Part shown: piece after piece, positions 40,408 through 43,793 of the stretch
How positions within the stretch are numbered: the first letter of the stretch is position 1
How the letters are laid out: every line of letters begins with the position of its first letter
NCBI RefSeq assembly: GCF_005870035.1
Contig: NZ_SWJG01000001.1
Location: 1,909,639 to 1,973,638 of the forward strand
DNA length: 64,000 nt
Source of the DNA: Spirosoma lacussanchae
GTDB taxonomy: Bacteria; Bacteroidota; Bacteroidia; Cytophagales; Spirosomataceae
Reading direction: 5' to 3'
Program-made: the position numbers and the translations under genes
The notes under the pieces: generated by a model
What the model was told of the DNA's origin: nothing
Database searches by the model: none
What the model saw: only the letters and a program-made list of their open reading frames with translations

Positions 40408-40497
40408 CAGCCGGATTTTAAAGAGTTAATAAAGGAAGGGACTCCAGACCTGGTACCCATTCTTTCGTTGACTCCTTCACTTTTTCGCTCTTACCAC

Positions 40498-41901
40498 ATG
40501 GAATACCGCATCGAGAAAGACACGATGGGCCAGGTTCAGGTGCCGGCCAACGTTTACTGGGGCGCGCAGACGCAGCGTTCCATCGAGAATTTTAAAATTG
40601 CTCAGGACATCAATAAAATGCCCCGCGAAATTATTCGGGCGTTTGCGTACCTCAAGAAAGCGGCTGCGCTGACCAACCTCGATGCCGGGGTGCTGGCGCC
40701 GGAAAAAGCCGAACTGATTGGCCGCGTCTGCGACGAAATTCTGGAAGGAACGCTGGACGATCAGTTTCCGCTGGTGGTATGGCAAACCGGATCGGGTACC
40801 CAGTCGAATATGAACGTTAACGAAGTGGTGGCCTACCGGGCGCACGTGCTGCAGGGTGGATCGCTCACTGACGAAAAGAAAGCGCTGCATCCGAACGATG
40901 ATGTGAATAAGTCGCAGTCGAGTAATGATACCTTCCCGACGGCCATGCACATTGCCGCCTACAAGATCCTGCTGGACGTAACCATTCCGGGCATTACCAA
41001 ACTGCGTGATACGCTGGCGGCCAAGGCCAACGCCTTTATGCACGTCGTAAAGATTGGCCGCACCCACTTCATGGACGCAACCCCGCTGACGGTTGGGCAG
41101 GAGTTTTCGGGATACGTGTCTCAACTCGATCACGGCCTGCGGGCTATCAACAACTCGCTGGCTCACCTGAGCGAGCTGGCGCTGGGCGGTACGGCCGTCG
41201 GAACGGGGATAAACACCCCGCCCAACTACGCCGACAACGTGGCCAAACACATTGCCAGCCTGACCGGTCTGCCGTTCGTTACGGCCGAGAACAAGTTTGA
41301 AGCCCTGGCTGCACACGATGCCATTGTTGAGGCACATGGCGCGTTGAAAACGGTAGCGGCCAGCCTGATGAAGATCGGCAACGACATCCGCATGTTGTCG
41401 AGTGGCCCGCGGGCGGGGATTGGTGAGTTATACATTCCGGACAACGAGCCGGGGAGCAGCATCATGCCGGGCAAGGTGAACCCGACCCAGTGTGAAGCCA
41501 TGACAATGGTAGCCGCTCAGGTAATGGGCAACGACGTAGCGATCAACATTGGCGGTATGAACGGCCATTTCGAGCTGAACGTATTCAAGCCGGTCATGAT
41601 CTATAATTTCCTGCATTCGGCCCGGCTTATCGGCGACGTATGCGTATCGTTCAACGACAAATGTGCCGAAGGTATCGAGCCGATCGAAGCCAACATCAAA
41701 AAGCACGTCGATTCGTCGCTGATGCTGGTAACGGCGCTGAATACCAAAATTGGCTACTACAAAGCCGCCGAAATTGCTCAAACTGCCCATAAAAATGGCT
41801 CTACGCTGAAAGAAACGGCCCTGCAACTGGGATACCTGACCGAAGAAGAGTTTAACGAGTGGGTCAAACCCGGCGACATGGTCGGCGAGCTGCCTGCCTG
41901 A
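40498..41901 (+). CDS. fumC: Class II fumarate hydratase
   Basis: A 467-residue enzyme converting fumarate to malate in the citric acid cycle. Family marks are [13 protein letters not shown] near residue 100, [27 protein letters not shown] with the catalytic-site His, and the signature [16 protein letters not shown]. The start at 40498 gives [11 protein letters not shown], the normal N-terminus of the family; a longer frame adds 31 unrelated residues. Aspartase has a similar fold, but the sequence fits FumC better. It stands alone with its own terminator. Confidence 0.96.
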
Positions 41902-41973: not shown

Positions 41974-42018
41974 GGCAGCGCCAGGTTGTACTTTGTCGGG
42001 TACTTTCGCCACCGCCTT

Positions 42019-42726
42019 ATGCTTAATCAACTACCCCCATACGTTAGCCTGGTTTTTGGCGTTACTACGCTGATTACGGTCTGGCTGTTTTACCGGGCCA
42101 GCCGGCAGTCGACCACCGTGTTGCTGGTTCTGCTAGCCTGGATGGCTCTCCAGGCGGGCCTGAGTTTGTCGGGGGTTTACCGGCAGACCGATGCGATACC
42201 TCCGCGTTTTCCGGCCCTGGTAATTCCACCGCTCCTGTTGCTGATTGGGCTGCTGCGAACCACCGGGGGGCGCCGGTTTCTCGATTCGCTCCGGCTAGAC
42301 CAGCTGATTCTACTGCATACCGTGCGCATCCCGGTCGAGCTGGTGCTGTTCTGGCTGTTCGTTGCTGGCGCGGTGCCAAAGGAGATGACCTTCGAAGGAC
42401 GGAACGTCGATATCCTGTCTGGGCTATCAGCGCCCGTGGTGTACTATCTGTCATTTGTCCGGAAGCGGTTGTCAGGCAGGGGGGTGTTGATCTGGAACCT
42501 GATCTGTCTGGGTTTACTGGTCAATATTGTGCTGACAGCAGCTATGGCTGTTCCCTCGCCTGTTCAGCAGATCGCGTTCAGTCAGCCTAACATAGCTATC
42601 CTCTATTTTCCGTTTGTATGGCTGCCATCGGTGGTGGTGCCCATTGTGCTGGTGGCTCATGTGTCGGCGCTGCGTCAATTACGCCGGAAAGCGTCGGAGA
42701 AGCAGACCGATCTGTTTATACACTGA
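42019..42726 (+). CDS. Polytopic membrane protein of unknown function
   Basis: A 235-residue protein with six or seven hydrophobic helices (among them YVSLVFGVTTLITVWLFY and LVIPPLLLLIGLL) and short polar loops, ending in a basic, polar tail (LRRKASEKQTD). No family or motif was recognised. ATG 42019 is the first sound start; the longer frame uses TTG. It is followed by 160 bases without a clear signal before the FtsZ-like gene. Confidence 0.7.
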   Translation: MLNQLPPYVSLVFGVTTLITVWLFYRASRQSTTVLLVLLAWMALQAGLSLSGVYRQTDAIPPRFPALVIPPLLLLIGLLRTTGGRRFLDSLRLDQLILLHTVRIPVELVLFWLFVAGAVPKEMTFEGRNVDILSGLSAPVVYYLSFVRKRLSGRGVLIWNLICLGLLVNIVLTAAMAVPSPVQQIAFSQPNIAILYFPFVWLPSVVVPIVLVAHVSALRQLRRKASEKQTDLFIH

Positions 42727-42887
42727 ACCCCGCAGATCGGAGCCTGTGGGGCAGGATACACCATTTACTAACAAGGCGTCTCACTAATTGAATAAGTTCG
42801 GTTAGAACATCAACCCAATTCCTTTTTGGTGTATAGCTGTCCAGGCAACCCGTTTAGTAACTGGTTAAAATCCCTCTCTACGTGCTC

Positions 42888-43793
42888 ATGTACAATGATT
42901 CAGAAAACCCGGCTATCGCGTTGATAGGCCTTGGCGAAACCGGAACTGCCGTTAGCAATCAGCTTTACAGGAAAGCTATCCGGAACGTCGTCCCGATTCT
43001 CTGCGATACCGATCCGGACCGGCTTCGGGCCTCGCCCATACCCAATAAACTGTTTGTTGAATCCGGGAGGGATCATGCCGATGCAAGGTGGCACCTGGCC
43101 GATGCATTTAATGAGTTGCCAGCGCTGGGCGAGCTAGCCCTTATCGTTACGGATCTTCGAACACCTGCCGACTGCGAACTGGTGCCAATCCTGGTCGATC
43201 TACTGGCTGAATATGGGCTGTTTACGGTGGTGTGTATTGGCCTGCCGCCAGATATTGAGGCCGCGCAGCAGGATCTGGCCAACCAGACCATGCATCGTCT
43301 GCAGGCCGAGGCCGACAGTCTATGGATATACCCACTGTCAGATACAACCTGGTCGCAACAGGTTGATCAGCTTACCAGCGCGGTTGGCAAACTGGCTACA
43401 TTCGGCGAATCCATGCTGGGTAATGTCGATTTTATGGACTTTAAAAAAGTGGTCAGTAAGGCACGATTAACGCTGACAACGGCCAGGGCCAGGGGCCAAA
43501 GCCGGTCGGCCGAGATTATGCAGGAGCTAACCCGGCAGCTAAATCAGCAGATGGCAATCAGCGAATCGGGCGTATATCGGGTGTTGCTGGTTGTATGTTA
43601 CAGCGACGATAAGCCGTTGCTTGTGCGTGAACACGTGGACCTGTCGAACTGGGTCAGTGAGGTCGTCAAAACCGAGCCCCTTGTATGTAAGCTTGGAATG
43701 TTTGCCGATCCTGAACAGGGCGAATGGCTCGATGTGTCGGTACTGATCGGGATGCCCGTTGCGGACGCTTCAGCCGACCAGGCCAGCCGTTAG
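42888..43793 (+). CDS. Divergent FtsZ/tubulin-like protein lacking the GTP signature
   Basis: A 301-residue protein whose whole length matches the FtsZ fold by pattern. The first strand and loop, IALIGLGETGTAVSNQ, correspond to the FtsZ T1 loop, and ILCDTDPDRL to its T2/T3 region. Where FtsZ has GGGTGTG, this protein has TDLRTPAD (residues 88-95), so the main phosphate-binding loop is gone. The synergy loop that completes the neighbour's active site is kept: GNVDFMDFKK has Asn179, Asp181 and Asp184 of the NxDFxD motif. The C-terminal domain (about 215-290) ends with LDVSVLIG. It may be a non-polymerising modulator of FtsZ or a separate family. No division gene is nearby. Confidence 0.7.
   Translation: MYNDSENPAIALIGLGETGTAVSNQLYRKAIRNVVPILCDTDPDRLRASPIPNKLFVESGRDHADARWHLADAFNELPALGELALIVTDLRTPADCELVPILVDLLAEYGLFTVVCIGLPPDIEAAQQDLANQTMHRLQAEADSLWIYPLSDTTWSQQVDQLTSAVGKLATFGESMLGNVDFMDFKKVVSKARLTLTTARARGQSRSAEIMQELTRQLNQQMAISESGVYRVLLVVCYSDDKPLLVREHVDLSNWVSEVVKTEPLVCKLGMFADPEQGEWLDVSVLIGMPVADASADQASR

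Follow-up and report, generated by a model that had tools for sequence, protein, structure and literature searches.

An FtsZ-like protein of Spirosoma with a dismantled nucleotide face and a conserved T7 face: a candidate partner of FtsZ

Introduction

The active site of FtsZ is divided between two subunits. Within the filament, each upper subunit inserts its T7 loop into the nucleotide site of the subunit below, and in Staphylococcus aureus FtsZ the T7 residues D210 and D213 of the upper subunit hydrolyse the GTP held by the lower (PMC8936486). D210 swings and places the catalytic water, D213 and residue G72 of the lower subunit assist, and the substitutions N208L, D210N and D213N suppress assembly (PMC8936486). 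What, then, becomes of a subunit that has lost one half of this site while the other half is kept under selection? A natural protein of this kind would be a test of the T7 half alone at a filament end, where it might form a cap, trigger hydrolysis or sequester monomers. Here we describe a candidate encoded in a stretch of 64,000 nucleotides from a Spirosoma genome (the window).

An FtsZ homologue and its family

The preliminary description of the window had placed the protein at 42888-43793, and an open reading frame of 301 codons for amino acids is present there on the + strand (Table 1). Its ATG at 42888 was favoured over an in-frame GTG at 42882, as the starts of the homologues align with the ATG. 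The host genome (6.33 Mb) encodes a separate canonical FtsZ (G000:C2:11981-12928), which scores 335 bits, above the TIGR00065 cut-off, in a frame of 510 aa.

The same description had read the protein as FtsZ-like from end to end, and this was borne out by profile, chain and alignment comparisons. The NCBIfam model TIGR00065 (ftsZ) matched the single window protein with E = 2.3e-9 at a score far under the equivalog cut-off, and the FtsZ chain 2r6r matched its residues 9-285 with E = 6.5e-4. A profile of the family matched FtsZ chains of the PDB over nearly the full length with E values down to 1.8e-21, and the best 49 sequences listed in that search were all FtsZ. The protein also aligns throughout with the FtsZs of the host and of E. 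coli. In Pfam it has no more than a marginal match (Tubulin, E = 0.05). The family-profile search of the PDB matched neither tubulin nor CetZ; one chain described as 'Tubulin/FtsZ GTPase domain' appeared at E = 0.11.

Structure prediction agreed with this assignment. AlphaFold2 gave a poor model from two sequences only (pLDDT 43), and with 20 sequences it returned an FtsZ-like model of pLDDT 82 and pTM 0.80, for which the 50 PDB matches listed in a fold search were all FtsZ (TM 0.69-0.78). The larger alignment included 18 FtsZs from viral contigs and the model was steered by these canonical rows; it therefore supports the fold and is not independent proof of it, which is given by the sequence evidence.

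A search of genome contigs with the single sequence found one near-identical relative only, and the family was revealed by whole-genome searches, in which 222 genomes of the taxonomic family were examined in six frames and then with a profile of seven members. Eight orthologues were found, the window protein included: five among 36 Spirosoma genomes (G000, G201, G191, G211 and G214) and three among the nine genomes of one sister genus (G136, G138 and G141). Of the relatives that carry the gene, Spirosoma sordidisoli (G201) is the closest, its protein being 90% identical. The gap in scores is clean, with E = 2e-101 for the weakest member and 1e-50 for the best canonical FtsZ. No further members were found at member-like scores among 390 genomes sampled across the order, nor any besides the window protein at E <= 1e-60 among 395 genomes of the class. 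A gene present in so few genomes of two genera must be dispensable.

Table 1. Positions in the window of the FtsZ-like gene, its motifs and its upstream neighbours. Residue numbers are those of the window protein unless E. coli is named.
Feature	Position	Strand	Basis or remark
CDS of FtsZ-like protein (predicted pseudo-GTPase), 301 aa	42888..43793	+	ATG at 42888, stop 43791-43793; TIGR00065 match; orthologues in 7 further genomes
T1 remnant GxGxxG, residues 14-19, GLGETG	42927..42944	+	three glycines invariant in the family
Point of T3 loop deletion (GLGAG and flanks) relative to FtsZ, residues 57/58	43056..43061	+	alignment; missing or disrupted in 8/8
TDLRTPAD, residues 88-95, at the T4 (GGGTGTG) position	43149..43172	+	motif kept by 0/8 members
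Deletion of ~12 aa at T6 and the start of H7, residues 150-153	43335..43346	+	alignment and column table
T7 loop NVDFMD, residues 179-184	43422..43439	+	D181 and D184 are E. coli D209 and D212; 8/8 members
R247-E248, near or in helix H10, bottom interface side of FtsZ	43626..43631	+	both invariant, 8/8 members
Fumarase class II (fumC), context gene	40495..41901	+	upstream neighbour of the FtsZ-like gene
Membrane-type protein, 246 aa, between fumC and the FtsZ-like gene	41986-42726		without Pfam or PADLOC match

Loss of the nucleotide face and retention of the T7 face

The anatomy was read from an alignment with the host and E. coli FtsZs and from a column table over the eight members, and E. 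coli numbering is used below. TDLRTPAD aligns exactly with the GGGTGTG of both reference proteins. The replacement of this motif had been noted in the window protein, and T4 proved to be lost in all eight orthologues. Taken alone, however, it understates the change. T3 has gone as well, and the deletion at T6 removes a region that in FtsZ contains N165 and runs towards F182 and N186; these guanine and ribose contacts (N165, F182 and N186) were found in no member. Most of T5 is also lost, E138 being present in two members and R142 in none. The glycine pattern of T1 persists, although G20 is lost throughout and N24 in all members save one, and D45 of T2 is present in six of the eight. An intact GTP signature among the homologues was looked for and none of the eight was found to regain it. 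With T3, T4, T6 and the base contacts lost in every member, the family cannot plausibly bind GTP in the manner of FtsZ, in keeping with what had been proposed for the window protein.

The T7 loop presents a different picture. NVDFMD aligns with NADFAD or NVDFAD of the reference FtsZs; both aspartates occur in all eight members and F210 in seven. The earlier statement that the NxDFxD loop is kept thus stands for the aspartates but not for the asparagine, since N207 is found in the window protein only and is H, S, T or M elsewhere. In H10, E274 is invariant in FtsZ and in the eight members, and position 273 is R in all of them (K in the host FtsZ). The proteins terminate where the C-terminal (GAD) subdomain ends, to within about 11 residues, so that the linker and the partner-binding tail of the host FtsZ are absent.

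The contrast between the two faces was quantified on 80 reference columns that are invariant at 95% or more among 81 distinct canonical FtsZs. Nine of these are intact throughout the family (G17, G19, G22, D209, D212, G232, R235, L261 and E274), and the probability that nine random picks of 80 would include both T7 aspartates is 0.011. Retention averaged 0.65 over the T7/H8/S9-H10 face, against 0.21 over the nucleotide face (Mann-Whitney p = 0.001, for regions drawn by hand). Moreover, when each member was compared with the FtsZ of its own host, identity in the GAD half (0.25-0.39) was equal to or higher than that in the nucleotide domain (0.22-0.28) in eight of eight cases, whereas canonical FtsZs on average show the reverse (0.62 in the GAD half, 0.68 in the nucleotide domain). 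The alignments thus show a nucleotide ('top') face that has been dismantled and a T7 ('bottom') face that is the best-preserved part of the molecule.

The invariance of GxGxxG, in proteins whose FtsZ-specific loops are gone, invites the reading that the fold has been turned to a role unconnected with FtsZ, such as the binding of another nucleotide through this motif or of another protein. The very long branch of the family (see below) fits such a change, as do weak matches to NAD-type Rossmann domains, namely KtrA/YuaA and oxidoreductases in the PDB profile search and Shikimate_DH in the Pfam search (E = 0.15). These matches span just 30-55 or so N-terminal residues, however, and are explained by the GxGxxG pattern being common to both folds. 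A new role of this kind would also leave the invariance of the T7 aspartates and of the H10 glutamate without a reason, and we regard it as unlikely, though a serious alternative.

Origin and selection

Selection was estimated from three independent pairs of orthologues, in which most differences lie at third codon positions. dN/dS was about 0.20 in each: 0.048/0.236 for the window gene and G201, 0.128/0.704 for G191 and G211, and 0.107/0.505 for G138 and G141. For canonical ftsZ the ratio was 0 between G000 and G201 and 0.009 between G138 and G141. The FtsZ-like genes are therefore under purifying selection that is far weaker than that on ftsZ, and their reading as pseudogenes was rejected. 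A duplicate of ftsZ on its way to loss would account for long branches, patchy presence and a lost active site. Yet neutral drift is contradicted by these ratios, the frames are intact in eight species (282-301 aa), and the T7 aspartates are invariant although identity within the family falls to about 23%; decay is therefore very improbable.

In a maximum-likelihood tree of 49 rows the eight members group as a single clade (100/100), and the branch leading to it is very long, at 6.3 changes per column as drawn. The clade was placed inside the FtsZs of its own family, beside those of Spirosoma and related genera (84/62). Under long-branch attraction such a clade should be pulled to the outgroup, which is not what the tree shows. 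Approximately unbiased (AU) tests rejected trees that place it outside the order's FtsZs (p = 0.0055), those of the class (p = 0.0077) and those of the phylum (p = 0.012). Exclusion from the FtsZs of the family was not rejected (p = 0.20), which puts the branching point within or beside the family.

It had been suggested that the protein may stand for an undescribed branch of the tubulin superfamily, a view for which one could cite how little it resembles any FtsZ in sequence (identity of about 17-39% by half-domain). This suggestion did not survive the analysis: the PDB profile matches are to FtsZ and not to tubulin or CetZ, the clade is nested in Cytophagales FtsZ with the AU rejections just given, and the family is confined to two genera in the genomes searched. 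A deep branch is thus the least credible of the alternatives and is largely refuted. On phylogenetic grounds the family is a lineage-specific, fast-evolving duplicate of Cytophagales FtsZ.

Other unusual FtsZs were met in the course of the searches. Nine genomes gave two profile matches at FtsZ-like scores (G100, G177, G180, G181, G273, G278, G405, G477 and G497), which suggests that the order contains additional FtsZ duplicates, or else split genes. A second family of divergent FtsZ paralogues was seen in another family of the phylum (L129:538-1506, which is G576:C111:24137-25105, and L130:527-1426, which is G598:C69:1826-2725). Here T4 is largely present, as GKGTSTT or GKGTGTS, and D209 of T7 is replaced by glycine (xxGFxD). 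These paralogues, apparently independent, are possibly a mirror case in which the nucleotide face was kept and the catalytic loop lost. Finally, 74 IMG/VR viral-contig stretches (L166-L239) carry the exact FtsZ T4 motif AGMGGGTGTG; their FtsZs amount to about 18 distinct sequences and are either viral genes or host carry-over.

Genomic setting

In G000, G201 and G214 the FtsZ-like gene closely follows fumC on its downstream side, and in G191 the two share a contig at a distance of about 15 kb. This shared vicinity in four Spirosoma genomes points to an old chromosomal locus followed by losses rather than to recent mobility. The copies of the sister genus sit at other loci, and in the further Spirosoma genomes that were checked the vicinity of fumC held no convincing remnants of the gene, which also speaks against decay. 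In G000 and G201 the two genes are separated by the 246-aa membrane protein, which among the loci compared recurs solely in this 90%-identical relative. No conserved partner gene was found in the loci compared, nor any operon partner pointing to cell division.

A type IV (Mrr) restriction endonuclease directly adjoins the FtsZ-like gene in two Spirosoma genomes (L074:8567-9484 and L075:10315-11232; PADLOC mREase_IV, E = 8e-91), which are 90% identical to each other. Beside the gene in the window no defence genes were recognised, and the protein itself had no PADLOC match.

The setting bears on a further reading, in which the protein would be a decoy whose non-polymerising bottom face and C-terminal half absorb division inhibitors borne by phages or toxins. 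The retained bottom face would suit this role, since several FtsZ inhibitors bind the bottom face or the C-terminal half, MciZ among them at the bottom interface (PMC8936486). The C-terminal half moreover tracks the host FtsZ, evolution is fast and distribution patchy, and the adjoining Mrr enzyme is the sole positional support. Conversely, both catalytic aspartates would be superfluous in a decoy, and the lack of PADLOC matches and of defence neighbours in the window counts against it. We also know of no phage inhibitor for these hosts, and on balance a decoy appears improbable.

A possible mode of action

The retention of both T7 aspartates and the purifying selection across the family fit a subunit that acts on a neighbouring FtsZ. 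We consider it about an even chance that the protein is an FtsZ partner with a bottom face only, whose T7 face would dock on the GTP face of normal FtsZ and so regulate assembly. The anatomy is read directly from the alignments; it is from this anatomy that we infer the docking and its effect.

The growing end of FtsZ filaments has been proposed to be the bottom, T7-exposing end, which incoming monomers join with their GTP-loaded top face (PMC8936486). In simulations, said to agree with mutants, the top is the kinetic minus end (PMC8042166). The pseudo-GTPase would be unable to extend a filament, because no subunit would stack normally on its dead top face. Its bottom face could, however, dock wherever normal FtsZ exposes its GTP face. 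Bound to a free GTP-FtsZ monomer, it would cover the surface used for joining the growing bottom end, which would amount to sequestration. On a filament it would sit at the top, kinetic-minus end as a cap, and may there also provide D209 and D212 and hydrolyse the terminal GTP. In sum, the protein would regulate FtsZ assembly, most likely by restraining it or by promoting turnover.

The preliminary description had seen in the protein a subunit able to complete the active site of a neighbouring FtsZ. In its full form this would be a trans-acting 'half FtsZ', docking on the nucleotide face, supplying the T7 catalytic residues and serving as a minus-end cap or as a GTPase activator and monomer sequesterer, and we put it forward tentatively, with rather less than even confidence. 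The T7 asparagine is lost in seven of the eight members, so that catalysis in trans is uncertain even if docking remains. As N208L suppresses the assembly of S. aureus FtsZ (PMC8936486), docking or catalysis may be altered in these proteins. Furthermore, bottom-face mutations of FtsZ are toxic, unlike top-face ones (PMC8936486), from which it follows that a subunit with a dead top need not be a strong poison and that its effect may be mild. The dispensability of the gene and the lack of an operon partner pointing to cell division also weigh against a regulator of FtsZ assembly.

Comparison with known systems

The family shares with canonical Bacteroidota (Cytophagales) FtsZ its fold, an end-to-end alignment, both T7 aspartates, the GExR pattern and the H10 glutamate; the C-terminal pattern FKFG..D..LG is clearest in members G191 and G211. 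It differs in lacking T3, T4, T6, the base contacts, the C-terminal linker and the tail, and in evolving far faster (dN/dS of about 0.2 against 0-0.01). No description of a bacterial FtsZ paralogue with both T7 aspartates and an erased nucleotide face was found in the open-access literature searched.

Among divergent FtsZ homologues, Nmar_1262 of the thaumarchaeon Nitrosopumilus maritimus has AGKAGSA instead of GGGTGTG and is thought to be unable to bind GTP (PMC3684127). It resembles the present family in the loss of this motif, but lacks the T7 loop too (PMC3684127), whose aspartates are kept here in all eight members. As it belongs to a different domain of life, the loss was independent. 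The FtsZl1 and FtsZl2 families (Makarova and Koonin 2010) are divergent and fall outside classical FtsZ; they keep GGGTG(S/T)G, the motif used to find them, and FtsZl1 occurs in VWA/OmpA operons (PMC2875224). Membership in these families was rejected, the motif being absent in all eight members and no VWA or OmpA genes being found among the neighbours scanned.

The best precedent for the proposed role is ARC3, which combines a degenerate FtsZ-like domain with a MORN region. In chloroplasts ARC3 inhibits assembly of the FtsZ ring (PMC13335998). Like the protein described here it is FtsZ-derived and lacks a normal GTPase, and it regulates true FtsZ, as the Spirosoma protein may. It is a plant protein, however, longer and equipped with the MORN region, and it is likened here by description. 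Membership in the ARC3 group was rejected for the window protein (301 aa, no MORN match).

SulA is an FtsZ-binding inhibitor of division, and with MciZ it resembles the pseudo-GTPase in the proposed outcome, in that FtsZ assembly is limited through one longitudinal face. MciZ is not an FtsZ homologue and binds the bottom (T7) face (PMC8936486), whereas the pseudo-GTPase would act on the opposite, nucleotide face. If this is true, an FtsZ-derived regulator of the top face would be the mirror case of MciZ and would serve as a tool in work on the kinetics of FtsZ filament ends.

The septin pseudo-GTPases have followed the same evolutionary path: they are fast-evolving paralogues of a filament-forming GTPase that have lost the use of nucleotide and serve at an assembly interface (PMC10731463). 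They are eukaryotic, have a different fold and are incorporated within filaments (PMC10731463), unlike the role suggested here. The Spirosoma protein would thus offer a bacterial parallel both to ARC3 and to the septin pseudo-GTPases.
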